In this document: positions 3,779-60,800 of the stretch, in pieces
How the letters are laid out: each line of letters opens with the position of its first letter
How positions within the stretch are numbered: the first letter of the stretch is position 1
NCBI GenBank assembly: GCA_035236585.1
Contig: CP141138.1
Location: 31,507,437-31,571,436 of the forward strand
Length of the DNA stretch: 64,000 bases
Reading direction: 5' to 3'
Source: Warburgia ugandensis
Lineage: Eukaryota > Streptophyta > Magnoliopsida > Canellales > Canellaceae
Notes under the pieces: generated by a model
Database searches by the model: none
What the model saw: only the letters and a program-made list of their open reading frames with translations
Told to the model about the DNA's origin: nothing
Position numbers and translations under genes: made by a program

Positions 3779-3808
3779 ATGTAGAAGCAAAGAGAGAGAT
3801 GAACAAAG

Positions 3809-3816: not shown

Positions 3817-4941
<1,125 letters not shown>

Positions 4942-6128: not shown

Positions 6129-6131
<3 letters not shown>
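4942..6131 (+). other. 3' UTR and downstream intergenic DNA
   Basis: No further coding signal is visible after the TAG at 4939. A canonical aataaa at 5366-5371 is a possible poly(A) signal, giving a 3' UTR of about 430-450 nt. Confidence 0.4.

Positions 6132-6171
<40 letters not shown>
6132..6171. repeat. (GA)n microsatellite
   Basis: About 20 GA units. They directly abut the SINE fragment that follows, in the place where the SINE 5' half should be. Confidence 0.95.
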
Positions 6172-6173
<2 letters not shown>

Positions 6174-6252
6174 CTTCGTGTGTACTATTGATCCTTGTGG
6201 TCCGCCCTTTTCTCAACCCTGCATATGCAAAAACTTCATGTACCGAGTTGCA
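6172..6252 (+). mobile_element. 5'-truncated Au-type SINE
   Basis: The run ggcttcgtgtgtactattg, followed by ccttgtggtccgcccttttc and then gcatatgcaaaaacttcatg and taccg, follows the 3' half of the plant Au SINE as I recall it (GGCTGCGTAC, CCTTGTGGTCCGGCCCTTCC, CGCATAGCGGGAGCTTAGTG, CACCGGGCTGCCC). The tRNA-derived half with the pol III boxes is absent. No target duplication was found. Confidence 0.65.
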
Positions 6253-8483: not shown

Positions 8484-8641
8484 TCTTGCAGATTTCAAAT
8501 TAAAGGGCAGCCCTGGTACACGAAGCTTTTGCCTATGCAGGGTCCGAGGAAGGGACAGACCACAAGGGCCTAAAGTACACAGCCTTACCTTGCATTTTGC
8601 AAGAAGCTGTTTCCACACCTTATCTTGCAGATTTCAAATTA
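8484..8641 (-). mobile_element. Au-type SINE, 5'-truncated, with 19-bp target duplication
   Basis: The body (8503-8622), read on the minus strand, gives ggaaacagcttcttgcaaaa, then aaggtaaggctgtgtac, cccttgtggtctgtcccttc and accagggctgcccttt, the order of an Au SINE 3' region. It is flanked by identical 19-bp direct repeats tcttgcagatttcaaatta at 8484-8502 and 8623-8641. The A and B boxes are missing, so this copy was 5'-truncated on insertion and cannot be transcribed by pol III itself. The intact target duplication suggests a fairly recent insertion. Confidence 0.85.
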
Positions 8642-30229: not shown

Positions 30230-30291
30230 AACTCCGCCAATGCCGATCCCAAGCCTAGATAAAAAAGGAGGAGGGTCTTGCGTCAGGTGCC

Positions 30292-30650
30292 AGCCGGCAA
30301 GGGGGAAGTTGAAGATGATTCTATTATTTCTTTCTTACAAATGAATATGCATTTGTATATTAGTTTGTGAGGAAGAAATGAAAATCATCTCTAGCTTCTT
30401 AAAAGATGGCAACCCTTGTGTCAGGTAGCCAGCCGGCAAGGGGGAAGTTGAAGATGATTCTATTATTTCTTTCTTACAAATAAATATGCATTTGTATATT
30501 AGTTTGTGAGGAAGAAATAAAAACCATCTTTAGCTTCTTAAAATATGGCCACCCTTGCGTTAGGTAGCCAGCCGGCAAGGGCGAAGCTGAAGATGATTTT
30601 AATAATTTTAATGAAAATCATTTTCATCTTTTTAAAAACTATGGCAACCC
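30292..30650 (+). repeat. 139-bp monomer array at the 5' end of LINE R1
   Basis: agccggcaag recurs at 30292, 30431 and 30570, giving two full 139-bp monomers and a shortened third. Each monomer is an imperfect palindrome. Its left half (agatgattctattatttct onward) mirrors its right half (…gaagaaatgaaaatcatct) around atgcat. Confidence 0.9.
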
Positions 30651-30689
30651 AAACATGACATGAATCGGAAAATGACATTTGCTCAAGCT

Positions 30690-30890
30690 AGGGCGTTCCC
30701 CATAAGCGACGCACTGCATCAGATCCTGAATGCGGTGAAAAATAGGCAAGGGTTGCTAGGGCGTTCTCCCAGAAGCGACATGCTACATCAGATCCCGAGT
30801 GAAGTGAAAAATGGCAAGGGCTGCTAAAGCGTCCCCTCGGAAGCGACGCGCTGCATCAAAACCCAGGTGTAGTGAAAAGTGGACAGGGGT
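30690..30890 (+). repeat. Array of about 70-bp GC-richer units, LINE R1
   Basis: Three units each carry aagcgacg(c)...tgcatcaga(t)cc...gtgaaaaatgg...caaggg. The same three-unit block occurs in R2, R3 and R4. It sits directly before the endonuclease frame and may be leader or the start of the protein. Confidence 0.85.
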
Positions 30891-31798
30891 TCATACCATG
30901 GAGGTTGAGAAAGGCGATAGTAAATAGGGTATCTCCAAAACATAAGATTCGCATAGCTACATGGAATATAGGGACACTAACAGGTAAGAGTTTGGAGTTA
31001 GTAGACACGATAAAACGTAGGAAAGTCAACATTGCTTGTATCCAAGAAACCAAGTGGAAAGGGGCTAAAGCTAGAGAAATAGATGGGTATAAATTATGGT
31101 ATGTAGGAAAGGAAAATAATAGAAATAACATAAGAATAATAATGGATAAGGAATTAAAGGATAAAGTTGTGGATGTTAAAAGACTCAGTGATAGAATTAT
31201 AATAACAAAAATGATTCTAGGAGAGCTTATTATAAATATTATAAGTGCATATGCACCACAAGTAGGGTTACAAGATATAATTAAGAGACAGTTTTGGAAA
31301 TATATGGAGGGAGCCATGCAAGGAATTCCCAACACTGAGGGGATATTTATAGGAGCAGACTTGAATGGCCATGTAGGAAAAGCTAAGGAAGGATATGATA
31401 GCATACACGGAGGGTATGGTATAGGTGAATGAAACGAGATGGGGGAGAATATCCTCAATTTTGCTTTGTCATATAACCTATCCATTGCAAATACACTCTT
31501 TAAGAAGAGGGATGAACACTTAATAACCTTTAAAAGTGGACTTCATAAAAGCCAAATAGACTTTTTTCTACTTAGGAATAATGAACGATCTATATGTAAG
31601 GATTGTAAGGTGATACCCGGTGAGAGTTTAACCTCACAATATAGGTTAATGGTTATGGATATTCATATCAAAAGATGGAGTAAAAGAACTGAACTTAATA
31701 CACATCCAAAAACTAAGTGGTGGAACTTAAAAGGAGAGAAAATAACCTCATTCAAAAATAAGTTGATGGTAGAAGGAAATTGGAACTATGAAACATAA
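30872..31798 (+). pseudogene. LINE R1 endonuclease domain (broken)
   Basis: The frame carries the endonuclease/exonuclease/phosphatase motifs in order: [15 protein letters not shown] near 30950, CIQETKW near 31035, ISAYAPQVG near 31245 and [11 protein letters not shown] near 31355. A TGA at 31430-31432 replaces the CGA (Arg) present in R4. A TAA at 31796-31798 replaces GAA in R3. The endonuclease nicks target DNA to prime reverse transcription. The catalytic residues visible (Asn, Glu, Asp-Asn pairs) are intact, but the protein is cut off from RT. Confidence 0.85.
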
Positions 31799-32233
31799 GT
31801 AAATACCATGTGGACTTATATGACTGAGTCCATTAAGAAAGTGGCAAAAGATGTCTTAGGAGTATCTAAAGGTAAAAGGCTATTAACAAAGGAAACATGG
31901 TGGTGGAATGAAACAGTGCAAAAAGCTATTAAAGAAAAATGAAGGCCTTTTAAAACATAGCAGAAGATTAGAAATAATGAAAACTATGAACAATATAAGA
32001 ATGCTAAAAACGTTGCTAAGAGAATAGTAAGTGAGGCTAAACTTAAAGCATATGATGAGCTCTATAATAGACTAGGAATAAGAGAAGGTGAGAAAGATGT
32101 GTTTAAACTTGCAAAAGTAAGAGAACAGAAGGGTAAGGACTTAGAGCATGTTAGGTGCATTAGAAGCGATGATCAAAGGGTATTAGTCAAAGATGATGAG
32201 ATCAAACAAAGGTGGGAAATATACTTTTAAAAA

Positions 32234-33784
32234 TTGTTAAATGACAATGGCCTTGAGAATATAGGGATTGAAAATACTATAAATCTAAATAACACTGGAT
32301 ATTATAGATATGAACATAGGATTAGAATACTTGAAGTAAAAGAGGCCTTGAGAAAGATGAAATCAGGAAAGGCCATGGGGCCTGATGGTATACCAATAGA
32401 GTTTTGGAAGCATATGGGAGATATTGGGGTAGTTTGGTTGACCAAGTTATTCAACAAGATCATAAAATCAAAGAAAATGCTTGATGAGTGGAGGAAAAGC
32501 ACTATTGTACCAATCTATAAGAATAAAGAAGACATTCAAAGCTGCACTAATTATTGAGGGATCAAACTTATGAGCCACACCATGAAACTTTTTGAAAGAG
32601 TGATTGAGAAGAGGTTACGACATGAAACAAGTGTATCGGAGAATCAGTTTGGTTTCATGCTTGGGAGGTCTACCATGGAAGCTATTTTCTTACTAAGACA
32701 ATTAGTAGAGAAATATAGGGAGAGGAGAAAAGACCTGCACATGGTCTTTATTGACTTAGAGAAAGCTTATGATAGAGTCCCTAGAGAGTTAATATGGAGG
32801 GTGTTGGGTGGTAAAGGGGTTTCTCATGGGTATATAGATATAATTAAAGATATGTATGAGGGAGCAGTAACAAATGTTAAGACTACTAGTGGCGTAACTG
32901 GTGATTTTCCTGTCACTGTCGGATTGCACCAAGGATCGGCATTAAGTCCATACCTTTTCACATTAGTTATGGATGAGTTAACAAAACATCTGCATGAGGA
33001 GATTCCCTGGTGCATGCTATTTGCAGATGATATGGTCCTACTTGATGAGACAAGGGAGGGTGTAAACATAAAGATAGAGTTATGGAGAGAAGCATTAGAA
33101 TCAAAAGGATTTAAAATTAGCCAAACTAAGACAGAATATATGGAATGTAATTTTAGCAAGGAGAGTAGGAGTGGAACACCAGTCAAGATTGATAACCAAG
33201 AGGTCCCCATGAGAGACCACTTTCGATACTTAGGATCATTGATCCATGAGAGTGGAGAGATTGAGAGGGAGGTTACCCAGAGAATCTAAGCAAGTTGGAA
33301 CAAATGGAGATGTGCATCGAGTGTTTTATGTGATTGGCGGGTGCCACTCAAACTAAAGGAAAATTTCTATATGATGGCTATAGGGCCAGCCATGCTATAT
33401 GGATCAGAGTGTTAGGCTGTTAAGGAACATCATGCTCATAGGATGAGTGTCGCAGAAATGAGGATGTTAAGATGGATGAGTGGTAAGACAAGAAAGGATA
33501 GAATTAGAAATGAAAATATTAGAGGAAATTTAGGAATAGCACCAATAGGTAACAAGATGAAGGAGATTAGACTTAGATGGTTTGGACATGTTCAAAGGAG
33601 ACCAACAATGGCACCAGTTAGGAGTGAGGCAATACAAGTTGAAGGTTCTAAAAGGGCAAGGGGAAGGCCCAAAAGAACGTGGATAGAAGTGGTGAGGAAA
33701 GACTTAAAAACTTTGGGACTAAATGAAGCCATAGTATTTAATAGAGTGGAATGGAGGAATAAGATTCATGTGGCCGACCCCTAA
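32234..33784 (+). pseudogene. LINE R1 reverse transcriptase and C-terminal domain (broken)
   Basis: RT motifs are clear: [15 protein letters not shown] (about 32750), [12 protein letters not shown] (about 32925), the catalytic LFADDMVLL (about 33018), KTEYMECNF (about 33130) and RYLGSLI (about 33228). The C-terminal part with [10 protein letters not shown] follows from 33443. Stops include TGA for CGA at 32555, TAA for CAA near 33287 and TAG for TGG at 33413. They split it into at least three frames. The RT active site itself is intact. Confidence 0.88.
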
Positions 33785-33807
33785 TTGGGATAAGGTCTTG
33801 ATGATGA

Positions 33808-37076
<3,269 letters not shown>

Positions 37077-40000
37077 AGTTGTAGGATAACTCCGCTAATG
37101 CTGGTCCCAACCTTTGATGAAAAAGGAAGAGGGTCTTGCGTCAGGTGCTAGCTAGCAACGAAGAAGTTGAAGATGATTTTGTTATTTCTTTCATACTTGC
37201 AAATGAATATGCATTTGTATATCAATTTGTAAGTAAGAAATGAAAATCATCTCCAACTTCTTAAAAGCATGGCAACCCTAACATGATAGACATTCCCTCA
37301 AGCTAGGGTGTTCCTCATAAGCGACATGCTGCATCCAATCCCAGGTGCGGTGAAAAATGGGCAAGGGTTGTTAGGCATTCCATTAGAAGCGATGAGCTAC
37401 ATCAGATACTGGGTGTAGTAGAATATGGGCAAGGGCTACTAGGGTATCCCATCGGAAGCGATGTATTACATTAGAACCTAGGTGAAATGCAAAGTGAACA
37501 TGGGTTCATGCCATGGAGGTCGAGAAGTGTGTGGATAAATAAGATATCTCAAGAGCATAAAATTCATATCGCCATATGGAATATAGGAACATTAACAGGT
37601 AAGAGTTTGGAGTTAGTAGATATGATGAAACATAGGAGAGTTAATATCGCTTGTATCTAAGAAACCAAGTGGAAAGGGCTAAAACTGGAGAAATGGATGG
37701 GTGTAAACTCTGATACATATGAAAGGATAATAACAAAAATGGCAGAGGAATAATAGTGGATAAAGAATTAAAGGATGAATTTGTGGATGTTAAAAGAATT
37801 AGTGACAGAATTATAATAATAAGACTTATTCTAGAAGAGCAAACCATAAATATTACAAGTGCCTACACACCACAAGTAGGGTTCGAAGATATAATCAAGA
37901 GATAGTTTTGGGAAAATATAGAGGGAGTCATGCAAGAAATTCTTGACACTGAGGGGATATTTATAGGAGCAGACTTAAATGTTCATGTAGGAAAAGAAAA
38001 GGAATGATATGTTAGGATACATAGAGGGTATGGTATGGGAGAACAAAATGAGATGGGAGAAACTATCATCGGTTTTGCTTTGTCATATAACCTGGCCATT
38101 ACAATATATGTTCTTTAAGAAGAGGGATAAACACTTAATAACCTTTAAAAGTGGACTTCATGAAAGCTAATAGACTTTTTCCTACTTAGGAATATTGAAA
38201 GATCAATGTGTTAGGATTGTAAGGTGATACCTGGTGAGAGTTTAACCTCACAACATAGGTGAATGGTTATGAATACCTATATTAAAAGATAGAAGAAAGG
38301 AAATGAACTTAGTAGGTATCCAAAAACTAAGTGGTGAAACTTCAAAGGAGAGAAATATAACCTCATTCACAAACAAGTTGATGGTAAAAGGAAACTGGAA
38401 CTATGAAATAGAAGTAAACACCACATGAATTAATATGGTCTAGTCCATTAAGAAAGTGTCAAAAGATGTTTTAGGAGTATCTAAAGGTAAAAGAAAATTA
38501 GTAAATGAAACATGGTGGTGGAGTGAAATAGTACAAAAAGTTATTAAAGAAAAATATATGTGTTTTAAAGCATGGTAGAAAACTAGAAATAATGAAAACT
38601 ATGAGCAATATAAGAATGTCAAAAAGTTTGCTAAGAGAATAGTAAGTGAGGCTAAACTTAAGGTTTGTGATGACCTTAAAAATAGACTAGGAATAAGAGA
38701 AGGTGAGAAAGATGCGTTTAAACTTGCAAAAATAAGAGACCATAAAGGTAAGGACTTAGATCATATTAGGTGCATTAGAAGTGAGGATCAAAGGGTTATT
38801 AGTCAAAGATGACGAGATCAAACAAAGGTGAAAAACTTACTTTCAAAAATTGCTAAATGATAATGGCTCTGAGAATATAGGAATTGAAAATACTATAAAC
38901 TTAAATAACATTGGACATTATAGATGTGAACATAGGATTAGAATACCTAAAGTGAAAGAGGCCTTGAAAAAGATGAAATCAGGAAAGGTCATAAGGCCTG
39001 ATGGTATACCAATAGAGGTTTGGAAGCATATGAGAGATACTTGGGTAGTTTGGTTGATCAAGTTGTTTAACAAGATTATAAAATCAAAGAACATGCTTGA
39101 TGAATGGAGGAAAAGCTCTATTGCACCAATTTGTAACAATAAAGGAGACACACAGAGCTGCACTAATTATTGAGGGATCAAATTTATGAGTCACACTATG
39201 AAACTTTTTGAAAGAGTGATTGAGAAGAGGCTACGACATGAGACAAGTGTATCAGAGAACGAGTTTCGTTTCATGCCTGGGAGGTCTACCATGGAAGCTA
39301 TTTTCTTACTAAGACAATCGATAGAGAAATATAGGAAGAGGAGGAAAGACCTCCACATGGTCTTTATCAACTTATATAAAGCTTATGATAGAGTCTCTAG
39401 AGAGTTAATATGGAGGGTGTTGGGCGAGAAAGGGGTTTTGTAGGAGTATATAGACATAATTAAAGATATGTATGAGTGAGCGGTAACTAATGTTAAGACC
39501 ATTGGTGGCGAGATCGGTGATTTTCCTATCTCTGTAGGATTGCATTAAGGATCACCATTGAGCTCATACCTTTTCACGTTGGTTATGGATGAGTTAATAA
39601 AACATCTATACAAGGAGATTCCATGGGGCATGTTGTTTGCAAATGATATAGTCTTACTTGATGAGATAAAGGAAGGCGTAAACACAAAGCTAGAGTTATA
39701 GAGAGAAGCATTATAATCTAAAGGATTTAAAATCAACTGAACTAAGATAGAATATATATAATGCGATTTTAACAAGGAAAGAGGTAGGAGTGGAACACCA
39801 GTTAAGATTGTTAACCAAGAAGTCCCCGTAAAAAGATGACGTTGGGTACTTAGGACTAATGATTTATTAGACGGAGGTTACCTAGAGAATCTTAGAGGGT
39901 TGGAACAAACAAAGATGTGCATTTGGAGTTTTGTGTGATCGGTGGGTGCCACTCAAACTAAAAGGAAAATTCTATAGGATAGCCGTAAGACTATCTATGC

Positions 40001-40434
40001 TTTATGAATCAGAGTATTGGGTAGTTAAGGAATATCATGTTCATAGGATGAGGGTCGCAAAAATGAGAATGTTGAGATAAATGAGTTGCAAGATAAGAAA
40101 GGATAAAATTAGGAATAAAAATATTAGAGAAAACTTAGGGGTAGTACCAATAGGTAACAAGATGAGGGAAATTACACTTAGATGGTTTGAGCATGTCCAA
40201 AGGAGACTAAAAATAGCGTAAGTTAAAAAGAGTGAGGTAATGAAAATAGAAGGTTTTAGAAGGGCAACGGGAAGACCCAAAAGAAGTTGGATAGAAGTGG
40301 TGGGAAAAGATCTAAAAACTTTGAGACAAAATGAAGCCATTGTACTTAATAGAGAGGAATGAAGGAATAAGATTCATGTAGCTAACCCTTAATTGGGATA
40401 AGTTCTTGATGATGATGAGATTGAGTTGTAGGAT
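37077..40434 (+). mobile_element. RTE-type LINE, copy R2, old full-length copy with 11-bp target duplication
   Basis: The body at 37088-40423 starts aactccgctaatg and ends …cttgatgatgatgagattg. It is flanked by identical 11-bp repeats agttgtaggat at 37077-37087 and 40424-40434. It holds one monomer region (about 37130-37280), the block of about 70-bp units (37300-37500), endonuclease, linker (38850-39173), RT and the C-terminal domain, all with many stops and shifts. Its RT centre carries LFANDIVLL-like coding at about 39637, so the FADD catalytic motif is lost. It is the oldest of the four RTE copies. It ends 380 bp upstream of the reductase ATG, inside what should be that gene's promoter. 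Confidence 0.92.
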
Positions 40435-40813
40435 CTCCATCACTAGAAAATTTTTAGTAGTAGTAGTAGGAAGAGTGATGATCATGAAAAGAAGAAGAAA
40501 AAGGGATGAAGTGCTTGTAATTATTGTTTTATGTAGAAAATAATAAAAATTACAAGAAAATAATAAACTATTACTTGTGAGTCTCAATCGTTGGTTCATA
40601 AAATTAAAAGAAGGCCTAAGCTACAACCCAAACAAGAGTGTTCTTCATTTCGTAATTATTAATTTATTATTTACGAAAATAAATCCAATCTTTCGTTGCC
40701 AAGTGCTACCTGCAAACGACTCCCTTGAAAATGTAGTGTATAAGGTTGGTTTGATACAGAGTGACAGAGTGGAGAAAAGGGTGCATACAGTGACACTGGT
40801 TAAGTGGGAGGAG
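40435..40813 (+). promoter_or_regulatory. Proximal promoter and 5' leader of the reductase gene
   Basis: Only about 380 bp separate LINE R2 from the ATG. No strong TATA box is obvious; aataaa/ttatttacg-type AT-rich DNA near 40660 is the best candidate. An (AGT)n run lies at about 40451-40467. The reading frame is open upstream of the ATG to 40577, but the family start MSKVVCVTG supports 40814. Confidence 0.45.
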
Positions 40814-43800
40814 ATGTCGAAGGTGGTATGCGTGACAGGCGCTAGCGGATTCATCGGGTCTTGGGTGGTTCGCCTCCTCCTAGAACGGGGATACACTGTC
40901 CATGCTACAGTCCAAGATCTCAGTAAGTTCCTTTTCCATTTTAACACCCCCCTCTCCCTCCTACTGTTTGCGGCTGTTATTTCATCCCCCGTTTCATCTC
41001 TTCTGTTTGCACTGTTGTTCCCCTACATTATTTGAAATGACGATCTACACCGTCAAGAATGTGAAATTGACATCATGTCCAGTTGACTGCACTGATTGAC
41101 CCGTTTCAAGTCTTCCCCAGGCGAATTGAGGTGGTATTCTCTGGAGCTATTTGCATTGTGATAACAATTCTTGAAATTAGGTATAGCTGGTGAATGGTGA
41201 CTTACATAGCCCTTGGTTTTGGGGCTATTTATCTATATTTGAAAAATCTGATCCGTTTTTCTGGGAACGTTAAAAGCAAGGAAAAATATCCCTTCCATGG
41301 ATAATTTATCCATGGCTTGTTGAACCTGTGCTAAACATCCTTTTTATGTTTATATTTGGCAGTCAAAAACATTGATCGGATTATCTAAGAATATACCGTT
41401 CAACTGGCTGTTTTAGTAATGTTATCTGTGTTTTAAGAATGCTAATAGCAAGGGATTCGATATCCTTGGTGGGTTGCTTCTATACCAAAGAGCCCGTGTT
41501 AAGATTTCAAAAAATTGCAGAGGCAATATTTTGCAGCTTAAAACATTGGTAGAAATATCTAAAAACAAATGGCCCAATGTTTCAGGACTATTTTATCTAC
41601 AGTTGATATTTTATGTCTTTTAGAAATGCTAATAGCAATGGAAAAGATCACTATCCGTGAGAACTTTATCCTTGGCATTTTATTTCTATACCAGACAGCC
41701 CCTCTGTGTTTAGGTTTCAGAAAATTACCAAGGCAATGATTTTGCAGCTTAAAACATTGATAGAAATATCTAAGAACAAATGCCCAGCACTTCTGGACTG
41801 TTTTATCTACAGTTGAAATTTTATGGATTTTAGGAATGCTAATAGCAATGGATAAGATCACTATCCATGGGCAACTTTATCCGTGGTGTGTTATTTCTAT
41901 ACTAAACAGCCCCTCTGCGTTTAGATTTCAAAAAATTGCTGAGGCAATGATTTTGCAGCTTAAAACATTGATAGAAGTATCTAAGAACAAATGGTCCAAC
42001 ATTTCAGGACTGTTTTATCCACAGTTGAAATATTATGTGTTTTAGGACTGCTAATAGCAACAGATAGGATCACTACCCCTGGGCCACTTTATCCATGGTT
42101 TATTATTTCTGTACCAACAGCTCATTTTAGCTTTCAAAATCCACCAGCAATGATAGGGAAATAATGTTGGCATTCTCTACTTCTAATAGTAGTTACATTC
42201 CCTTTCTTAAATGCTTTCCTGACTAACTGTTGCCATGGTTGCACTACATTGATTTAATCCCACCTTATCTATTGTAAAAGAAAATTATTACAAAGTATAG
42301 AACAGGATGTTGTATAACATTGTTACCTGGAAACTTGGTTCTAGTTGTCTGTTCTAAGAACCTATTTCCTAAATATACTACCGAACTGTATAATTAGATA
42401 TCAGAAATCAAATTTCAAAGTCCATTGCTTTGATCTAGGGAATATTCTTTCTAATATTTGAAGCCAAGTAAAAACTTAATGTTAAACAAAACTAATAACT
42501 TGCATTAGCCTAATCTAAAGCTTACAGCCCTAAAATTCAGAATGTGGAATGTAGAACTGATTCTATGAAATATATGATAGAAAAAGAGTCTTCACTTCAT
42601 CCTTTTACTAGGTAGTAGCTTCTTAAACCTAGATGTAGACAGCTTCTCTCTCTTTTTTTTTTTTTTTTTTTTCCAGATTTGACTATTGCTTATCAGTTAA
42701 GTTCTGCTCTAAAGTGGTTAGCATAGGCTAAGTTACATATATTGAAGTTGCATACCGATCTCCTCACTTTCTCTTGTTATGACCTAGACCATATTGAACT
42801 GAAAATACATATTCTCCTCTTAAAAAAAAAAAGACTAACAAATTGAGAAAGCAAAAGAAATTGTATAGTGTACTTTGATTACATACTCATAATAGATGAA
42901 AGAATGCGCAAAGATTTGCCAATAAAATCTGGCCAGATTAGGAGCAAGTCTTGGTGCTTGTCAAGGAAGTTGCTCAGGATGCAAGAAAGTTTGCTACCAA
43001 AATAATTCCCTGATAGAGGTGGGGACACCTACCATTGGGGAAGGTGTAAAAAATATGATGTGCAATACTTCTGTTATCTTCTTTACTTCCCATGAGATCT
43101 GTTGAAGCTGATTAATTTGAAGAACAAACTAGAAGCAGTGATTACCTATAAGTAGGCAATGTGAAGCTACGGAGTAGATTAATATCCCAATATGATTCTA
43201 GCCATAGTGCAAGACTCATTGTTTAACGGTGTAGATCTATTCTTTGGTGAAGGTGTATGTGGGACTAGAATGGTGTAGGGTTTCTGATCTCTCAGAGTGG
43301 GCAGGTCTTGTGCTGCTTAGTAGTTAACAATTGGCAAGTTTTTTGGTGCTCGGATGATAGGTGATGTGATTCTTTGCTAGATAATGGCATACCATATGGT
43401 AATTAAATACAAAGTTATCCCTTTCTTTCTTGATAAACCAAATCGGAGCAAAAAATGTTCAACATTAGTATATGAAGTCTGCCTTTGGAGGTGGAGGGGC
43501 CACTGGTGAGAAGCACAAATATTGGGCAGAATCAAGGTTCTAGATTTGATGTTGTGTGGAGGGGCCACTTCTGAATAGCACAAATTTTGGGAAGAATAAA
43601 GGTTCTAGATTTGATGTGGGACGATGTCACATTTTTTTTATTCATTCCCATCTACTAAAATTATTTCTTTTTACTTTTTGTTTTATTGGATGGTTTGATT
43701 TCATACTCATTAATCCATTCTTACTTTCTTTTTTTTATTGATATTGGTCTTAGTATCCATAATTGCCCAGCTCTCAAATTTGATATATTTTCTTCTTGTT

Positions 43801-45781: not shown

Positions 45782-45814
<33 letters not shown>

Positions 45815-48800
45815 CAAGACCTTATCCCAATTAGGGGTCGGCCACATGAATCTTATTCCTTCATTCCACTCTATTAAATACCATGGCTTCATTTAGTCCC
45901 AAAGTTTTTAAGTCTTTCCTCACCACTTCTATCCACTTTCTTTTGGGCCTTCTCCTTGCCCTTTTAGAACCTTCAACTTGTATTGCCTCACTTCTTCTAA
46001 CTGGTGCCATTGTTGGTCTCCTTTGAACATGTCCAAACCATCTAAGTCTAATCTCTCTCATCTTGTTACCTATTGGTGCTATCCCTAAATTTCTTCTAAT
46101 ATTTTTATTTCTAATTCTATCCTTTCTTGTCTTACCACTCATCCATCTCAACATCCTCATTTCTACGACACTCATCCTATGAGCATGATATTCCTTAACT
46201 GCTCAACACTCTGATCCATAGAGCATGGCTGGCCTTATAGCCATCCTATAGAATTTTTCCTTTAGTTTGAGTGGCACCCGCCGATCACATAAAACACCCG
46301 ATGCACATCTCCATTTGTTCTAACCCGCTTGGATTCTTTGGATAACCTCCCTCTCAATCTCTCCACTCTCATGGATCAATGATACTAAGTATCGAAAGTG
46401 GTCTCTCATGGGGATCTCTTGGTTATCAATCTTGATTGGTGTTCCACTCCTACTCTCCTTGCTAAAATTACATTCCATATATTCTGTCTTAGTTCGACTA
46501 ATTTTAAATCCTTTCGATTCTAATGCTTCTCTCCATAACTCTATCTTTATGTTTACACCCTCCCTTGTCTCATCAAGTAGGACTATATCATCTGCAAATA
46601 GCATGCACCAGGGAATCTCCTCATGCAGATGTTTTGTTAACTCATCCATAACTAATATGAAAAGGTATGGACTCAATGCCGATCTTTGGTGGAATCCGAC
46701 AGTGACAGGAAAATCACCAATCACGCCACTAGTGGTTTTAACATTTGTTATTGCTCCCTCATACATATCTTTAATTATGTCTATATACCCCTGAGAAACC
46801 CCTTTATCACCCAACACTCTCCATATTAACTCTCTAAGGACTCTATCATAAGCTTTCTCTAAGTTAATAAAGACCATGTGCAGGTCTTTTCTCCTCTCCA
46901 TATATTTCTCTACTAATTGTCTTAGTAAGAAAATAGCTTCCATGGTAGACCTCCTAAGCATGAAACCAAACTGATTCTTCGATACACTTGTTTCATGTCG
47001 TAACCTCTTCTCAATCACTCTTTCAAAAAGTTTCATGGTGTGGCTCATAAGTTTGATCCCTCGATAATTAGTGCAGCTCTGAATGTCTCCTTTATTCTTA
47101 TAGATTGGTACAATAGTGCTTTTCCTCCACTCATCAGGCATTTTCTTTGATTTTATGATCTTGTTAAACAACTTGGTCAACCAAACTACCCCAATATCTC
47201 CCATATGCTTCCAAACCTCTATTGGTATACCATCAGGCCCCATGGCCTTTCCTGATTTCATCTTTCTCAAGGCCCCTTTTACTTCAAGTATTCTAATCCT
47301 ATGTTCATATCTATAATATCCAGTGTTATTTAGATTTATAGTATTTTCAATTCCTATATTCTCAGGGCTATTGTCATTTAACAATTTTTGAAAGTATATT
47401 TCCCACCTTTGTTTGATCTCATCATCTTTGACTAATACCCTTTGATCATCGCTTCTAATGCACCTAACATGCTCTAAGTCCTTTGCCTTCTGTTCTCTTA
47501 CTTTTGCAAGTTTAAACACATCTTTCTCATCTTCTCTTGTTCCTAGTCTATTATAGAGCTCATCATATGCTTTAAGTTTAGCCTCACTTACTATTCTCTT
47601 AGCAACGTTTTTAGCATTCTTATATTGTTCATAATTTTCATTATTTCTAATCTTCTGCCATGCTTTAAACACATTCGCTTTTCTTTAATAGTTTTTTGCA
47701 TTGTTTCATTCCACCACCATGTTTCCTTTGTTAATAGCCTTTTACCTTTAGATACTCCTAAGACATCTTTTGCCACTTTCTTAATGGAGTTAGCCATATA
47801 AGTCCACATGGTATTTACTTCTGTTTCATAGTTCCAATTTCCTTCTACCATCAACTTATTTTTGAATGAGGTTATTTTCTCTCCTTTTAAGTTCCACCAC
47901 TTAGTTTTTGGATGTGTATTAAGTTCAGTTCTTTTACTCCATCTTTTGATATGAATATCCATAACCATTAACCTGTGTGGTGAGGTTAAACTCTCACCGG
48001 GTATCACCTTACAATCCTTACATATAGATCGTTCATTATTCCTAAGTAGAAAAAAGTCTATTTGGCTTTTATGAAGTCCACTTTTAAAGGTTATTAAGTG
48101 CTCATCCCTCTTCTTAAAGAGTGTATTTGCAATGGATAGGTTATATGACAAAGCTAAATCGAGGATATTCTCCCCCATCTCATTTCGTTCACCTATATCA
48201 TACCCTCCGTGTATGCTCCTATAAATATCGCCTCAGTGTTGGGAATTTCTTATATGACTCCCTCCATATCTTCTCAAAATTGTCTCTTAATTATATCTTG
48301 TAACCTTACTTGTGGTGCATATGCGCACTTATAATATTTATAATCAGCTCTCCTAAAATCATTTTTATTATTATAATTCTATTACTGAGTCTTTTAACGT
48401 CCACAACTTTATCCTTTAATTCCATATCCACTATTATTCCTACGTACCATAATTTATACCTATCTATTTCTCTAGCTTTAACCCCTTTCCACTTTGGTTT
48501 CTTGGATACAAGCGATGTTGACTCTCCTACGTTTCATCGTGTCTACTAACTCCAAACTCTTACCTGTCAGTGTCCCTATATTCCATGTAGCAATGCGAAT
48601 CTTATGTTTTGGAGATACCCTATTTACTATCGCCTTTCTCGACCTCTATGGTATGAACCCCTGTCCACTTTTCATTGCACTTGGGTTCTGATGCAGCGCG
48701 TTGCTTCCGAGGGGACGCTCTAGCAGCCCTTACCCATTTTTCACTACACTTAGGATTCGATGTAGCACGTCGCTTTTGGGAGAACGCCTTAGCAACCCTT

Positions 48801-51800
48801 GCCTATTTTTCACCGCATCCGGGATCCGATGCAGCCCGTCGCTTATGGGGAATGCCCTAGCTTGAGCAAATGTCATTTTTCGATTCATGTCATGTTTGGG
48901 TTGCCATAGTTTTTAAAAAGCTGAAGATGATTTTCATTAAAATCATTAAAATCATCTTCAGCTTCACCCTTGCCGGCTGGCTACCTGACGCAAGGGTGGC
49001 CATATTTTAAGAAGCTGAAGATGATTTTCATTTCTTCCTCACAGACTAATATACAAATGCATATTTATTTGTAAGAAAGAAATAATAGAATCATCTTCAA
49101 CTTCTCCATTGCCGGCTGGCTACCTGACACAAGGGTTGCTATCTTTTAATAAGCTGGAGATAATTTTCATTTCTTCCTCACAAACTAATATACAAATGCA
49201 TATTCATTTGTAAGAAAGAAATAATAGAATCATCTTCAACTTCCCCCTTGCCGGCTGGCACCTGACGCAAGACCCTCCTTTTTTAGCTGGGCTTGGGACC
49301 GGCATTGGCGGAGTTGATGTCCCTTGTCTTGAATTATCTTGATTTGATGTCCCTTGTCTAGCCACTTAAGCTTGTAAGGTTGAGGATGGGGCTTCATTTT
49401 CAACTTCAATTTATTCACCAACTCTGTAGAAGCTACATTCTCATAAGCACCACTATCAATTATAACATCACATACCTTTCTATGGAATGTGCATCTTGTG
49501 TGAACGATGGTGTAGTGTAGTGATAGATCAATTGATAGAAACAACAGTATTATGAGGAATTCCAATTGATAATGTTCAGTTACAGAGATTCATTGAAAAG
49601 TAATGCAAACAAATAGCTACAATACTCTCTGTATTGGATAACAGGGAAATGCTTCTCAAGAAGCAAAAATTAGACCCTAGCTTTCGAGGAGCTAGAACCT
49701 CCTACTTCTTGTCTTTTCCTCTTGCGCCATTGTCTCTTTTATTGACTCTTCCTCTTTTCCCTCCCAATCTCCCGCTCTCACAGATTCTCCTTGATCTTCT
49801 CTAATTGAATTCCATAACCAACTTATTCTCCATGTGCTAGCTGTCCTCATTCTTCCCAAATAACAGAAGCCTTCTGCTGCTTATGTCAATTGCTGCATGA
49901 ATCAGCCCTTATTGAGTAGAACTTCCCAAAATAACCCTGAGATGCAACAGATGTAAACCCCCCCTGCTGGTTTGAGTTGGGGGACATGGAAAGACCGGAT
50001 GGAGTTTGGCATGCTGTATTAGCTCTAGATGATAAGCCACCTGTCCAATCTTCTCAAGTATGGCATAGGGTCCATAATTATGAGGATGTAGTTTCTTATT
50101 GAGCTGTGTTGACAAGGACTTGAGGTGGTAGGAGTGAAGCTTCAAATAGACAATCCCCTAGCTGGAAAGTGAGATTTTGACGGCAAATCAACTTGGTTCT
50201 TCATACAAGTTTGTGCTGCCTCCAAGTTTTGTTAGAACCGAATCACAAGCAACCACCTTTTGATTAACCTCTTCCACAAGGATTCACCCCCAGTGAATGT
50301 CAATAAGGTGGGAGGGTATCATTCTTGCAGAGCTCTGATAAGTAGTGTTATACTAGTATTCTGCCCAACATATCCAAGCAAGCCATGATTTAGGCTTGTT
50401 GCCAATGAAGCAATGTAGATACATTTCCCAATAGTGGTTGACCACCTCAATCTGTCCATCTATTTGGGGATGATAAACTGAGCTCATCTTTAATGAAGTT
50501 CCAACCTGTTTAAAAAGCTTAGACCAGAAATGGCTCATGAATACATGATCATGATTGGAGACAATTGACTGGGGATAATCATGTAGCCTGATAGTTTCCT
50601 TGATAAAGGGTATGTGCCACATCTTTTGCTGTGTAAGGGAGGCTGCAAAGAAGGAAGTGATTGAATTTGGAGAGGCGATCGACAACGACTAACAAAGTCT
50701 CAAATCTGTGGGCTTTAGGCAGACCACTAATGAAGTCCATGGACAAATCATTCCAAAATAGTTCAGGAATAGGAAGGGGTTGAAGTGGCCCAGTCGGCTT
50801 TGTAGGACCTTACTTGTTCCTTTGACATATGTCACATGTAAAGATAAATTTCTGAATATCCTGGCTTATCCCTTCCCAATGGAGCACCCTGGAGATATGC
50901 TTATAGGTGTGTATGAAACCATAATGCCCCTATCCTGGTGTGGAACGGAACCCATGCAAGAATGCTATAATGCGAGGTGAAGATTTTTGAATAAACAATG
51001 ACCAATCTACCATGGAATAGTAGGAGACCTTGTTTGAGGGTGTATCCCGGGTGACTATCTTGATTTACCAAGAGGTCTTGAATAATATTGCTAAGTTAGG
51101 GGTCACTTTGTATCTCATCAGTTAGTGAATCCAAATGAGCACACCGGGCAACCGAGATAGCAACGAGTTGAAGTAGTGGGTCGTGTTCCCCTTTGGGATG
51201 GGAGGAAGGCTGCAGTGGAGCTGTCTTACATGCCTGATCATTATTGGAGTCAGAGGCATGAAACTGTTGGCGCCTAGACCAAGCGTCAGCCACTCTCTTT
51301 TTAGATCCTGGCTTGTTTTGGATTACAAAATCAACCCAATGAGATTTGTTAACCATTTTTGTTGTTCTTCATTAAGTAGCCACTGATCCATTAGAAATCT
51401 AAGTCTTTTTTGATTGGTGTGGATAACAAAATGATGGCCAAAGAGGTAATGTCGCCATTTGTGTATTGCTATGACTATGGTCATAAGTTCCATTTCATAA
51501 ACTAACTTAGACTGAGATCTATGGAGTTGCTAGGCATAAAAAGTCACTGGCCATGTGACTCGGCTTCAAGTAGGTGCAGTGACTTAAGTCGCACTGCGAT
51601 TAGTCACGCGCCTGGATGCGCCTTGCGCTTTGCGCCTAATGTGCCCCCGATTCTAGGTGCAGCGATAGGCACTTAAAACCCTACTTTGGTTTTTTTTTTC
51701 TTTCTTCATTCTTCTTCTTCCCCATTCCACTGCTTCCTTTCTGAACGAGTAATCTTCCATCCTTCCTTTCTGAACGCCTAATCTTCCATCCAAGCAATTG

Positions 51801-54800
51801 AGGTAAGATTATAACTTTTATCTGCTTTCCTTTTTTGTTTTTTTTCTAAAAATATGGTAAAACTAGTATCGTTTTTCCATTTTTTTTGCATAATGCTTCA
51901 TTTTTCTTTGAAAACTCAACATATGTATACTCTAGAGGTAAAAGCAAAAACTCCATTTCATACCATCCGTTTTCATTGATTTAGTGTATTATGCACTATA
52001 TTTTTAGTTTTCTGTATTTTTTTTTCTTGAAAATGTAAAATACATCAGTAATTCGTATTTTTTTCATTTTTTTAAAGCAAATATGCATATTCTCACTATC
52101 ATAATGCTAAAAACAACTAACTCATGAGCTTAATTGACTATTTTTGTTATTGTCCTTTTTTTTCTGCTTTTGTAGCAAATGTGTAAGTGTCATCATAGGA
52201 ATGCTAAAAACAACTTATCAATAGAATCTTTTGATGTTTTTTCTTACTGTTTTATTTTTTTTTTCCCATTAACAACAATAATTTTTTTTTTTTTTTTTGT
52301 TCTATTTGTTTGCAGGTTTCCTCTTCTAAATCTCTGATTGCGTGATTTGTTTCCATTCCACTCTAGTAGTTTCTTGTATTCCTATTTCCTATTGATACTA
52401 CAATATGTCATCATCAAGGGGCTCCACCAATGCTTCTTTTAGAGTAATGCATCCAGTGTAAGAATATGCAGAGGCACGGGATCTAAATGATAAAAATTTG
52501 GTATGGTGCAAGCTTTGTGAGAATAATCCCTCCCTACTAGGCTGCTACTCCTTGTTTGATTGTTTATTGTATTTGTATGTTTCTCAAGTCTCAACTTACT
52601 TCTTTGTATATAACTGTATGATTGATTGATTGTTTGATTTAGCTTTAGGTCCTTAGGTTGTTATCGTTGACAAGTATTTATTTCATCATCATCATCATCA
52701 AGACCTTATCCCAATTAGGGGTCGGCCACATGAATCTTATTCCTCCATTCCACTCTATTAAATACCATGGCTTCATTTAGTCCCAAAGTTTTTAAATCTT
52801 TCCTCACCACTTCTATCCACGTTCTTTTGGGCCTTCCCCTTGCCCTTTTAGAACCTTCAACTTGTATTGCCTCACTCCTTCTAACTGGTGCCGTTGTTGG
52901 CCTCCTTTGAACATGTCCAAACCATCTAAGTCTAATCTCCCTCATCTTGTTACCTATTGGTGCTATCCCTAAATTTCTTCTAATATTTTCATTTCTAATT
53001 CTATCCTTTCTTGTCTTACCACTCATCCATCTCAACATCCTCATTTCTCGCAACACTCACCTATGAGTATGATGTTCCTTAACCGCCCAACACTCGATCC
53101 ATAGAGCATGGCCGGCCTTATAGCCATCCTATAGAATTTTCCCTTTAGTTTGAGTGGCACCCGCCGATCACATAAAACCCCCGATGCACATCTCCATTTG
53201 TTCCAACCCGCTTGGATTCTCTCGGGTGACCTCCCTCTCAATCTCTCCACTCTCATGGATCAATGATCCTAAGTATCTAAGTGGTCTCTCATGGGGACCT
53301 CTTGGTTATCAATCTTGACCGGTGCTCCACTCCTACTCTCCTTGCTAAAATTACATTCCATATATTCTCGTCTTAGTTCTATTAATTTTAAATCCTTTTG
53401 ATTCTACTCGCTTCTCTCCATAGCTCTAGCTTTATGTTGACACCCTCCCTTGTCTCATCAAGTAGGACTATATCGTCTCGCAAATAGCATGCACCAGGGA
53501 ATCTCCTCATGCGTATGTTTTGTTAACTCATCCATAACTAATGTGAAAAGGTATGGACTTAATGCCGATCCTTGGTGCAATCCGACAAAGGACAGAAAAT
53601 CACCGACCACGCCACTAGTGGTCTTAACATTTATTCTTGCTCCCTCATACATATCTTTAATTATGTCTATATACCCCGAGAAACCCCTTTAACACCTAAC
53701 ACCCTCCATATTAACTCTCTGTGGACTCTATCATAAGCCTTCTCTAAGTCAATAAAGACCATGTGTAGGTCTTTTCTCCTCTCCCTATATTTCTCTACTA
53801 ATTGTCTTAGTAAGAAAATAGCTTCCATGGTAGACCTCCTGTGCATGAAACCAAACCGATTCTCCGATACACTTGTTTCATGTCGTAGCCTCTTCTCAAT
53901 GACTCTTTCAAAAAGTTTCATGGTGTGGCTCATAAGTTTGATCCCTCGATAATTAGTGCGACTCTGAATGTCTCCTTTATTCTTATAGATTGGTACAATA
54001 GAGCTTTTCCTCCACTCATCGCATTTTCTTTGATTTTATAATCTTGTTAAACAACTTGGTCAACCAAACTACCCCAATATCTCCCATATGCTTCCAAACC
54101 TCTATTGGTATACCATCGTGCCCCATGGCCTTTCCCGATTTCATCTTTCTCAAGGCCTCTTTTACTTCAAGCATTTTAATCCTACGTTCATATCTATAAT
54201 ATCCAAGTGTTATTTAGATTTATAGTATTTTCAATTCCTCTATTCTCGTGGCCATTGTCATTTAGCAATTTTTGGAAGTAGATTTCCCACCTTTGTTTGA
54301 TCTCGGCGTCTTTGACTAATACCCTTTGATCATCGCTTCTAATGCACCTAACATGCTCTAAGTCCTTACTCTTCGTTCTCTTACCTTTGCAAGTTTAAAC
54401 ACATCTTTCTCACCTTCTCTTGTTCCTACCATTATAGAGCTCATCATATGCTTTAAGTTTAGCCTCACTTACTATTCTCTTAGCAACGTTTTTAGCATTC
54501 TTATATTGTTCATAGTTTTCATTATTTCTAATCTTCTCGCCATGCTTTAAAATGCATTCGTTTTTCTTTAATAGCTTTTTGCACTTGTTTCATTCCACCA
54601 CCATGTTTCCTTTGTTAATAGCCTTTTACCTTTAGATACTCCTAAGACATCTTTTGCCACTTTCTTAATGGACTCACCATATTAGTCCACATGGTATTTA
54701 CTGCTTTCATAATTCCAATTTCCTTCTACCATCAACTTATTTTTGAATGAGGTTATTTTCTCTCCTTTTAAGTTCCACCACTTAGTTTTTGGATGTGTAT

Positions 54801-57800
54801 TAAGTTCGGTTCTTTTACTCCATCTTTTGATATGAATATCCATAACCATTAACCTATGTTGTGAGGTTAAACTCTCACCGGTATCACCTTACAATCCTTA
54901 CATATAGATCGTTCATTATTCCTAAGTAGAAAAAAGTCTATTTGGCTTTTATGAAGTCCACTTTTAAAGGTTATTAAGTGTTCATCCCTCTTCTTAAAGA
55001 GTGTATTTGCAATGGATAGATTATATGACAAAGCAAAATCGAGGATATTCTCCCCCATCTCGTTTCGTTCACCTATACCATACCCTCCGTGTATTCTATC
55101 ATATCCTTCCTTATCTTTTCCTACATGGCCATTTAAGTCTGCTCCTATAAATATTCCCTCAGTGTTGGGAATTTTTGCATGACTCCCTCCATATCTTCCC
55201 AAAACTGTCTCTTAATTATATCTTGTAGCCCTACTTGTGGTGCATATGCACTTATAATATTTATAATCTGCTCTCCTAGAATCATTTTTATTATTATTAT
55301 TCTATCACTGATTCTTTTAACGTCCACAACTTTATTCTTTAATTCCTTATCCACTATTATTCCTACGCCATTTCTATTATTTTCCTTTCCTACGTACCAT
55401 AATTTATACCCATCTATTTCTCTAGCTTTAGCCCCTTTCCACTTGGTTTCTTGGATACAAGCGATGTTGACTCTCCTACGTTTTATCGTGTCTACTAACT
55501 CCAAACTCTTACCTGTCAATGTCCCTATATTCCATGTAGCGATGCGAATCTTATGATTTGGAGATTCCCTATTTACTATCGCCTTTCTCGACCTCCATGG
55601 TATGAACCCATGTCCACTTTTCACTGCACTGGTTCTCGATGCTCCGCGTCGCTTCCGAGGGGACGCTCTAGCAGCCCTTGCCCATTTTTCACTACACCCG
55701 GGATCCGATGTAGCGCGTCGCTTCTGGGAGAACGCCCTAGCAACCCTTGCCTATTTTTCACCGCATCCGGGATCCGATGCAACGCGTCGCTTATGGGGAA
55801 CGCCCTAGCTTGAGCGAATTTCAGATTTCGATTCATGTCATGTTGGGGTTGCCATAGTTTTAAAAGCTGAAGATGATTTTCATTAAAATCATGGAAATCA
55901 TTACAATCATTAAAATCATTAAAATCATTAAAATCATCTTCAGCTTCACCCTTGCCGGCTGGCTACCGTTGACAAGTATTTATTTATATATTTATATTTC
56001 TATGTTTTTCTATTTTTTGGATTTTTTTTGCAATTTTTAGATTTAATCTGAATTTTTTCTTTTTTTAAATATTTAAATTCCTTAATTTTGCACCTTGACA
56101 TCTAGACGCGCCTTGTCCCTTTAGGCACAAGTTGCACCCCTTGCGCTTGTGAATACATAGACTGAGATCAACTTCTTGCATTCTATGTAGTTAAAGGCAC
56201 ACTTAGACGCTAGTCGACAGGTAAGCGCCTGGGAGGGGGCCAGGCACAGAGGAAATGAGGCGCGGTTGCCTAGGTGAGTGCCTGGGTGTGCCTGGGTGCC
56301 CCTTTCAGGCGCGCCCCCTACTCCAGGCGCAGACCACTTAACCCAATAACTTATAAACCTCATTTTTTTATTTTTTTTCACCTTCTAACCCTATTTTCAA
56401 TCTTCCAACCTCCTGAGAAGGTGAAAACGACCATTCCTCTTCGATCTTTCACAAATCTAAGCAAAAAAAGGTATGGATTTATGAATTTTAGCATGTGTAT
56501 ACAGTTTCTATAAAAACGTAAAAACTAGTACCATTTTTTCAAATTTTTTGTTTTTTGTTAACTATTTTCCATAGATCTTGATGGGTTTTAGTTCTATATG
56601 TATAAGAAAACATTCCATTTGAGTTTTATACTTCCTTGCTCTAGATTTGAGTTCGTTTTTAGGTTTTTTACTGTTTTTCCCAAAAAATCATTTATGGAAA
56701 TAAAAAAAGTCGTCGTTTTTTCTTATTTCTTCATTGAAACGTATTTCTATCCACATATATAGCTTTCCCATGCTTGTGTCTTCATGTGTGATAATTTTTT
56801 CATCTTTTTTTTTTTTTTTGTAATTTAGGGTTATTTTTTTAATTTTTCCAAAAAAAAAGTTACGAAAATTAAGAAAAAATTGTTCTTTTTTTATATTTAT
56901 TAGTTAATACCTATTCTTGTCCACATATATAGCTTACTCATGCTTGTATCTTCATGTATGATGTACTTTTCATGCTTTTTTTGTATTGTAGTGTTATTTT
57001 GTTCAATTTTTCTGAAAATAAAACTTACGAAAATTAGAAAAAAATTGTTTTATTTATATTTATTAGTTAATACCTATTCTTATATACATATATAGCTTTC
57101 CCATGCTTGTGTCTTCATGTATGCTGTATTTTTCATGCTTTTTTTGTATTTTAGTGTTATTTTTAGCTAATTTTTAATTATGAAAAATAAAATTTTGCGC
57201 CTCAGGCTCCAAGCGCCGCCTAGTCGTGCCTAGGAGCCCCAGGATCTAGGCGCACCCCTTTGCGCCTCGCGCCTTTAACTACATAGCTTGCATTAGGACA
57301 ACACCAATTCCTTTGTCAGATGTATCAGTTTCCAATACAAAGGTTTTGGAAAAATCAGGTACGGCCAATACAAGAACAGTTGTCATGGCATCTTTCAATG
57401 CATCAGATGCTGTTTGGGCTTCCAATGACCACATGAAGTTGTCCTTCTTGAGTAACTTAGTGGAGTAGGGATGGACCATAATTCCTCATGAACTTTGTAT
57501 AACAACCTGTAAGCTCCAAAAATCCTCGAAGTGCTTTGGTGTCGTTAGGAATGGGCCAGGAAAGCATAAAATCTATCTTGGAGGTATTAGCTACTACTCC
57601 ATATGCAGAAATAACGTGCCCTAAGTATTCCAATGAGGGCTGCGCAAACAAGTACTTCCTTCTATTTGCAATTAGCTGGTGTTTCCCAAGTATTTGTAAG
57701 ACAATTGTGATGTGCTCGAGGTGCAAAGTGAAATTGTAGCTATAAATTAGGATATCATCAAAGAAGATGAGGACGAACTTACGTAGATGGGGTCGGAATA

Positions 57801-60800
57801 TCTCATTTATGAGTTCCTGAAACGTTGCCGAGGCATTGGTTGATCTGAAAGACATAACAACAACTCGTAACACCCATCATGTGTCTTGAAGGCGGTCTTT
57901 GGTATGTCCGCATCGATGCATATTTGATAATAATCAGATTTAAGATCTAACTTGGAGAAAATGGTTGCACCCCCCAATTCATCCAAGAGTTAGTCAATGG
58001 TAGGGATGGAAAAGTTGTCAAGCACAGTCACCTCGTTCATGGTATGATAGTCTACACATAACCTACACCCGTCATCTTTCTTTTTAACCAATAACACCGG
58101 ACTAGAAAAAGAACTCGTACTATGCGAATGATACCTGAAATGAGCATTTCTCAGATGATTTTCTTGATCTTGTTTTTCTAAGAATGCGGGTAGCGGTATG
58201 GCCTGCTGTGCAGAGGTTGTGTTCCCTCCACCAATTAGATGGCGTGATCGTGGGGACGAGCGACTGGTACTCCCAAAGATTGATAAAAAACGTAGGAGAA
58301 TTGCTGTAAGAGAGAAATTGGCATTAGTTGACACTATTCTGGGGGTTGTGATAAGTCATGATCCATACCTTGGAACTCGACCATGTAACTTAAATCAGCC
58401 TTAGGGATAACCTCAGAATAGACTTAAGGGAAGCCAAAGAACCGAAGAGGGTTGGATCTCCCCTGAGTATGACCACACGCCCATCAATTGTGAACTGCAT
58501 TGTAAGATCACGGTAATTGGCTGCAATTTTCCTCAAGGTTTTCAACCAAGCAAACCCGAGGACTACGTTTACTCCCCCAAGATCAAAGGGATGGAAAGCT
58601 TGGGTTACTGTAATGCCCGACAAGGTTATCATGATTCCCCAGCATGCACCTTCACCTCTAGTGTAGTGGCTGTCCCCAACCCGGACTCCAAATCGTCGAG
58701 AACAGTACACGGGTAACTGTAGTTCAGTGATTATATGCTTGGCAAGAAAGTTATGAGAGGCAACATTGTCGATCAGCACGATGACCTCATGGGTTCAGAC
58801 AAACCCCTTCAATTTCATGTTGTTGTTGGCCATGAATCCTAAAATGGAGTTTAGGGATAACTCCAGAGGTTGATTCTCCCATCCTGGTGGTTACTCACTT
58901 CTAACAGAGAGTTATGCCAGCTTTAGAGCCATCTTCCTCCTCGTCAGCAAGTAGCAAAACTTGTAGCTTACGGTTTTTGCAACAATGTTCGGGATGATAC
59001 TTCTCATCACATCGATAGCATAAACCCTAGGTTCATTGCTGCTGTAATTCTGCGTTGGTTAGCAACTTAGCCGTTGGACTTTGTGTGGAAACCCCTCAAC
59101 GATTAGCATTGCATGATGGAATGGAGGGCAAATTACGATTTTGCCCTTGGTACCCCCCTTTCCGTCGATAGGAATTTTGTGTGGAATGAGTTGGGCCCCT
59201 ATACTTGGGGCCCATTTTCAACTTGGTGTGGGCAGCCCTTTATCTGGTCCAACATAGTGTTTTTCTCTTCGATTTTGTGGGCTAGTTCCATGAACCCGGC
59301 TAACATAGCAGACCTAAATATTTTGACCAGCCATAATCCCCTCTTTAAGTCCATTCATGAAAGCTCCCCTCAGCAGATCATTCGAGAGATCTACTAGGGG
59401 ATCGAAAAGAAGCTTGAACGATCGAAAGGGAGTCCTAGATTCTACCCATAGAAACCAGTGGAGAGTGTCTCCTTCTAAGCAGACACCAGTTGCAGCCACC
59501 TTCTCCTCGTAGGTGATTTGATTCACCTAGAAATATTGCTCCGCATGACAAAGCCACCCACATGGTTCCTTGCTGCCGATTACCAGCGGATCCAGCCTCC
59601 AGAAATGAGGTTCTGAACAAGTTTGGTCCATCGACATGAAAGGAATTTGCCTGCTGCCATCAAAAGTCTCGCCGATCTTAGTATATCTTGTGTGTCCATG
59701 CTCCTCTTTTGGCTCCTCTTTCCTTTTGATCCAATCTCTAATTTCCAATAGATATTCTCAAAAAGCCGTAACATTGGTTTGTAATCAACCAATGTTTTCT
59801 TTCATGTCGCCGATCTCTCCTCCAACTCTCTCAATCTCCTTCTCTAGTAGTTCGGTTCTTTCCATCCTAGTTCTAACCATGCCCCATGATTCAACAGCCA
59901 TGATACCAATTGATAGAAACAATAGTATTATGAGGAATTCCAAGTGATAATGTTCAGTTACAAAGATTCAATGACAAGTAATGCAAAAAAATAGCTACAA
60001 CACGCTATATTGGATAACAGGGAAATGCTTCCCAAGAAGAAAAAATAACATTCCCTAGCTTTCGAGGAACTAGAAACTCTCTCTACTTCCTTCCTGTCTT
60101 TTCTCCTACTCCCCTGTTTCTTTTATTACCTCTTCCTCTTTTCCCTCCCAAACTCCCGCTCTCACAAATTGTCCTTGATCTCCTCTACTTGAATTCCATA
60201 ACCAACTTATTCTCCATGTGCCAGCTGTCCTTATTCTTTCCAAATAATAGAAATTTTCTGTTGCTTATGTCAATTGCTGTGTGAATTAGCCCTTCTTGAG
60301 TAGAAGTTCCCAAAATGACCCTAAGATGCAACAGATGTAACACCTGGCCAATCATCATCATCTTTATGGACAATGCTTAAGCTTCTTTGGATCACCAACA
60401 TTTCACCTTGATTAGCATAGATGGCTTCTTTTCTCATTATGACATGATTTAGATTCTTCTTCATCTACAAATTCTGATTTTTCCTCCACCAGGGCAACCA
60501 CTTTGCAGTTTGGATATTCAGAGGCTATGTGTCCAAGACGTTGACATTTGAAGCATCTTCTCGAACTCGAACTTGAGGGATTGGATTGTTTGTTGTCATC
60601 ACCTTTGAATTGAGTTTTCCAAAATCTTGTGCTAGACGGTTGCATAGAAGAAGATTGGAAGAATTTCTTTTCCCAAAAGATCCAAAAATGCTTCTTTTTG
60701 AAACTCTTTTTTGTTTTCTACAATTAAAGGAAGTTTTCTAACATCATTGAAAGACTGGTATTGTTGTAAACATACTGTATCTCCAATTTCTTTCTTTAAA

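Follow-up and report, generated by a model that had tools for sequence, protein, structure and literature searches.

Four copies of one LINE in the window

The window, a stretch of 64,000 nucleotides of Warburgia ugandensis DNA (contig CP141138.1, positions 31,507,437 to 31,571,436), carries four copies of one long interspersed nuclear element (LINE), named R1 to R4, and the present analysis concerns R4, in which CAG and CTG sites are altered far more often than other trinucleotides. R4 occupies 52684..55966, with the minus strand as its sense strand, and was aligned with R1 (30570..33818, plus strand), the older sister R2 (37239..40428, plus strand) and R3 (45799..49000, minus strand), which has two internal deletions; for the sisters, the coordinates give the aligned stretch. 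Identity to R4 is 93.8% for R1, 83.6% for R2 and, for R3, 94.5% in the first 2.4 kb and 89.4% in the next 0.8 kb.

Domain scans, which covered R1 and R3, matched the reverse transcriptase family PF00078 in R1 (E 1.1e-33) and in R3 at 46323-47684 (E 3.7e-28). In R1, the putative endonuclease part (30803-31429) gave a match to PF03372 with E 0.0041 and 17.3 bits, under the cut-off of 24.5, and a scan of its part 30917-31429 matched no family. Judged from the reverse transcriptase of R1 and R3 and from the target-site duplication of R4, the family is a non-long-terminal-repeat (non-LTR) retrotransposon. Tandem repeats of 139 bp and 68-69 bp lie at the 5' ends of R1 (30277-30882) and R3 (48690-49271); only a 69-bp unit of these was found in R4. 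An Rfam scan at the gathering threshold and a tRNA scan of the window were both empty.

R4 terminates in a CAT repeat, and a 19-bp target-site duplication without mismatch, CGTTGACAAGTATTTATTT, stands on either side of it (52665..52683 and 55967..55985); in the same comparison of flanks, which covered R1, R3 and R4, the longest common strings were only 8 bases for R1 and 7 for R3. At the same time, CpG decay into R4 was nearly nil, T being present in R4 at 0 of 66 R1 CpG cytosines and 2 of 91 R3 CpG cytosines. The reverse comparison, with T in R1 at 35 of 151 R4 CpG cytosines, would be inflated if some R4 CpGs were false. Because of the perfect duplication and the scarce CpG decay, R4 looks like a young copy.

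Excess of changes at CAG/CTG

CAG and CTG belong to the CHG context (H is A, C or T), which plants methylate. Comparison of R4 with the column-by-column consensus of R1-R3 revealed alterations at 31 of 42 CAG/CTG sites (CTG 19/27, CAG 12/15), whereas the other trinucleotides were altered in 319 of 3014 cases; in a few instances (53047, 53221) the triplet that this consensus yields is present as a whole in one sister only. The corresponding Fisher p of 2.6e-21 is too optimistic, since overlapping trinucleotides are not independent. A strict rule, by which R1 and R3 had to agree, gave 19 of 25 CAG/CTG sites against 221 of 2658 other trinucleotides, and the same two-copy rule turned on the sisters gave 1 of 7 altered sites for R1 and 4 of 10 for R3. 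BLAST alignments, which are independent of the MAFFT alignment, concurred: among the 40 CAG/CTG sites of R1, 31 were altered in R4.

The preliminary description of this DNA, made from the letters alone, had announced such an excess from nine quoted forms, and the count by trinucleotide context bears it out. All nine R4 forms are present where they were placed, and each of the sister forms set against them occurs in at least one sister, so that as a common sister state they hold in part: CTG stands at 53045 and 53220 in R1 only, and R3 is the only sister with the CAG/CTG at 54018 and, for 55630, at the first site. The estimate of 15-17 changed sites was an undercount in view of the 31 found, and R4 is indeed unchanged at both sites that were given as unaffected (CTG at 52885, CAG at 53495).

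Several of the 31 sites look ordinary, namely 55699 and 55705, where a sister is also CpG, 55610, where R4 equals R2, and 53766 and 55780, where the change is of the C-to-T type. Moreover, CAG/CTG is mutable in the sisters too, with 15 of 46 R1 sites altered in R3 and 29 of 40 in R2. The bare count of altered sites is therefore a weak argument, because R2 differs from R1 at almost as many sites as R4 does, and it is the kind of change, that is, the insertions and deletions (indels) and the gain of CpG, that carries the argument.

Kind of change

The 31 R1 sites altered in R4 include 20 with an adjoining CG and 13 with a gap. The corresponding figures were 8 of 26 sites altered with no CG and no gap in the longer stretch of R3, 7 of 20 with three CG and no gap in its shorter stretch, and, for the 29 sites altered in R2 (84% identity), three CG and one gap. 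The replacement of TG/CA by CG in R4 depended on the preceding base: with R1=R3 as reference it occurred at 8 of 21 CTG, and at 5 of 137 ATG, 0 of 69 GTG and 1 of 86 TTG. An inserted C inside CTG was scored four times for R4 against R1, three times against R3, and never in pairs without R4. The CpG density of R4 is 24.7 per kb against 9.9-15.2, and among the 32 bins of 2 kb only two, both over R4, combine CAG/CTG at no more than 0.39 of expectation with CpG above 0.4 of expectation, the thresholds having been picked after the table was viewed and the nearest other bin, 38001, standing at 0.38 and 0.36.

The indels are the cleanest signal of the CAG/CTG effect. Ten of the 18 R4 indels touch CAG/CTG, where 0.78 were expected, and none of 5000 random placements reached ten; in the sisters, the counts were 0/2 for R1, 1/5 for R3 and 0/10 for R2. 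With categories assigned by hand, changed plus-strand CTG became CTCG in six of ten cases preceded by T on the 5' side and in none of nine others. A two-base change to GT also recurs in R4; AG or AA of R1 reads GT at 53512, 53721, 53841, 54117 and 54247, and at 53721 and 53841 CAG is present in neither R1 nor R3.

A predominance of C-to-T or G-to-A changes, the pattern of 5-methylcytosine decay, repeat-induced point mutation or a deaminase, was not found among the R4 changes at CAG/CTG. The share of the C-to-T type was 4 of 30 for R4 from R1, against 10 of 15 for R3 from R1 and 6 of 10 for R1 from R3. The cytosines of R1 and R3 changed to T at rates of 0.139 and 0.086 in CAG/CTG and of 0.045 and 0.029 in CHH, i.e., with an approximately threefold difference, which is the footprint to be expected if the LINE family is CHG-methylated. 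The LINE type and this footprint also agree with a plant as host.

Distribution along R4 and reading frames

The alterations are densest in 53047..54809, where 25 of 27 CAG/CTG sites are changed, and sparser in the rest of R4 (6 of 15). Measured in the frame of R1, which spans 955 codons and served as the yardstick with its own eight stops in 944 codons, R4 contains 17 frameshifting indels and a single stop in 933 readable codons, whereas R3 has four and five (917 codons) and R2 six and 25 (936 codons), respectively. Decay of the sisters thus yields stops, and R4 shows frameshifts instead. One insertion lies at a CAG site in the FADD motif of the reverse transcriptase (53472..53485, minus strand), where R4 has CGAG, R1, R3 and the outgroup LINE described below have CAG, and R2 has CAA. 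The earlier suggestion that several frame breaks of R4 are not real gains support in aggregate from this imbalance and from the placement of the indels, and the damage to R4 may be less than its letters suggest.

Direction of change judged from an outgroup LINE

A search of genome contigs gave a single relative, a LINE within 1-8504 of the record NZ_CP104070.1, entitled Alicyclobacillus fastidiosus plasmid unnamed3, with 63% identity to the window LINE over 167 reverse-transcriptase residues. In a viral-contig collection, neither a relative of the 167-residue protein nor a match to an exact 21-base pattern was found. This LINE, used as the outgroup, adjoins sequence that by eye resembles a cloning vector (approximately 300-730), and the record may represent a contaminating plant clone.

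Of the R1 CAG/CTG sites, 21 could be mapped to the outgroup, which carries CAG or CTG at 8 of them. R4 is altered at seven of these eight, with CG at all seven, and one of the altered sites lies in the FADD motif. Because R2 shares the letters of R4 at R1 position 32898, which is among the seven, six sites and not seven count for a change in R4, and these six point to a change in R4 and not in the sisters.

Other features of the window

The minus strand of 57460-58794 contains pieces of a reverse transcriptase (PF00078) and of a retroviral-type protease (PF08284) and is probably a broken LTR retrotransposon. Within 40547-42121, an open stretch, the end of which matches the start of the sugar-nucleotide epimerase families PF01370 and PF16363, precedes a 211-bp tandem repeat with approximately three copies.

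Discussion

The context of the alterations, their kind, the imbalance between frameshifts and stops, the youth of R4 and the CHG decay footprint of its sisters can all be read directly from the sequence. Taken together, they make it likely, on sequence evidence, that R4 is a recent LINE insertion in which methylated CHG sites (CAG/CTG) carry systematic long-read base-calling errors that passed into the consensus and were left uncorrected, so that the pattern would probably be real in the assembly and not in the organism. Presuming nanopore reads and a methylated R4, the base-calling network would have met 5-methylcytosine mainly in CpG, or never, and this training would provide the link to CpG: at methylated CAG or CTG the network would tend to write CpG, giving, on the plus strand, CTCG, CCG or CG for CTG and CGT, CGA, CGG or CG for CAG. 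Such a fault would be common to reads from many molecules, hence its retention by majority consensus. Polishing would then have failed on R4, perhaps because near-identical copies elsewhere prevent unique short-read mapping, and the older R1-R3 could have been corrected.

A number of results weigh against this account. Against R2, no inserted C inside CTG was scored in R4. Five consecutive CAG/CTG sites are unaltered in 55139..55515 (permutation P 0.017), and plus-strand outcomes differ between CTG and CAG (joint permutation p 0.001, with hand-assigned categories), which counts against the account because a strand-balanced error would not produce such inequality; it hints at one-strand reads. 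Eight of the 18 R4 indels lie away from CAG/CTG, and outside these trinucleotides the ratio of transversions to transitions is 28:39 in R4, 8:52 in R1 and 12:45 in R3. The CHG-methylation artefact put forward in the preliminary description is therefore the best account, resting on a context excess that is real, and yet it leaves these indels and transversions aside; contexts other than CAG/CTG may also have been miscalled in R4. The dense stretch contains two unaltered sites, and one of them, at 53495, is a CCAGG. This is the bacterial Dcm motif, which a caller that had learned from Dcm-methylated DNA would be likely to read; it is a single case.

The remaining difficulty is the restriction of the effect to R4. 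R1-R3, of the same family and in the same window, are without the signature. The repeat pair 49529-49959/59907-60344 shows no CG gain and one gap, and two further comparisons gave a trace: 13 of 21 sites altered with one CG and three gaps for 41478-41910 against 41684-42121, and 7 of 9 altered with two CG and no gap for 895-1403 against 2335-2844. An effect on other methylated sequence of the assembly was thus not found in R1-R3 and these repeat pairs, whose methylation is putative, and local polishing would have to account for the difference between R4 and its sisters.

The same restriction would suit a technical cause independent of methylation, in which R4 would be a patch of the assembly with thin or one-strand coverage, or one filled in across a gap, and would carry generic long-read errors. 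The strand-unequal outcomes, the clean run within R4 and the indels and transversions away from CAG/CTG are also what such a patch might give. However, generic errors would not place ten of 18 indels on CAG/CTG with fewer than one expected, nor would they create CpG at CTG and hardly at ATG, GTG and TTG; moreover, over 52685-52984, where the lone CAG/CTG site is unaltered, the identity between R4 and R3 is 97%. We consider this explanation unlikely.

The chances are smaller still that the changes are real, having been made by a mutational or editing process at CHG sites or acting on the LINE RNA during reverse transcription. The strong context preference and the presence of the signature in R4 alone of four copies would agree with such a process, and the unequal outcomes on the two strands suit one that acts on one strand or on RNA. 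Damage to 5-methylcytosine gives C to T, and this is the commonest change between the sisters but a minor one in R4; furthermore, the many frameshifts with one stop and the scarce CpG decay leave little time for such a process. We know of no enzyme that would turn CTG into CTCG in one setting and into CCG in another, although no search for one was made. Were the letters real, which we rate as highly improbable, CHG-directed rewriting of CAG/CTG to CpG forms, on methylated DNA or on the LINE RNA during its copying, would have broken the young R4 at many places at once; the plant would kill a transposon in one step, and transposon damage of this kind would be new.

Least probable of all is ordinary divergence, by which R4 would belong to another subfamily that kept CpGs lost from R1-R3 and then decayed normally: the sister CpGs at 55699 and 55705, the agreement of R2 with R4 at one site mapped to the outgroup, several states common to R4 and R2 against R1 and R3, and the CpG richness of R4 fit it, but it accounts neither for the one-base C insertions in CTG, nor for 17 frameshifting indels with one stop, nor for the gain of CG at CTG over ATG, nor for six altered sites with CAG/CTG in the outgroup and with R4 letters that no sister shares. 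Retained CpG as a general account of the CCG/CGG changes was rejected on the context-specific gain of CG and on the outgroup; it is likely at 55699 and 55705 and possible at the outgroup-mapped site common to R2.

If the account by base-calling errors at methylated CHG sites is true, plant assemblies made from long reads can contain young, methylated transposons that look dead though they are not, show false CpGs and are misdated or misfiled. Its signature, i.e., loss of CAG/CTG with gain of CpG and frameshifts without stops, needs nothing but the assembly to be recognised and might be used as a check of quality.

Comparison with known systems

As an element, R4 belongs to a family of plant LINEs that we take to be RTE-like, and it shares with them the reverse transcriptase, a weak endonuclease match, the target-site duplication and a 3' tail of short repeats (CAT on the plus strand); it differs in lacking, in its deposited letters, an intact frame.

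Regarding plants, the available excerpts of PMC7501810 describe a caller that was not optimised for native plant DNA, and those of PMC9749173 an improvement of accuracy in plants by species-specific callers. No description of CHG-driven consensus errors in a plant transposon was found among the matches listed, in so far as their available text goes, and the accessible parts of PMC8188678 and PMC10027222 do not treat such errors.

The nearest parallels come from bacteria. According to the excerpted text of PMC6591954, approximately 70% of consensus errors with default models fell at Dcm CCWGG sites; these Oxford Nanopore errors at CCAGG/CCTGG cluster, as in R4, at a symmetric 5-methylcytosine motif and outlast majority consensus, and CCWGG is itself a CWG context, as is CAG/CTG. 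The Dcm case, as excerpted, concerns a bacterial motif, whereas in R4 the context is CHG in one transposon copy, CpG is written, indels are many and the long-read method is putative. The portion of PMC10687267 at hand reports, for Listeria, a modification on which the caller had not been trained, located at GCAGC and GCTGG, again CWG-centred motifs that are miscalled; there, the errors vanish with amplification before sequencing, and the emphasis is on mismatches, whereas R4 has both indels and mismatches. The class of artefact is thus known, and the form that it would take in R4 is CpG written at the CHG sites of one young LINE.

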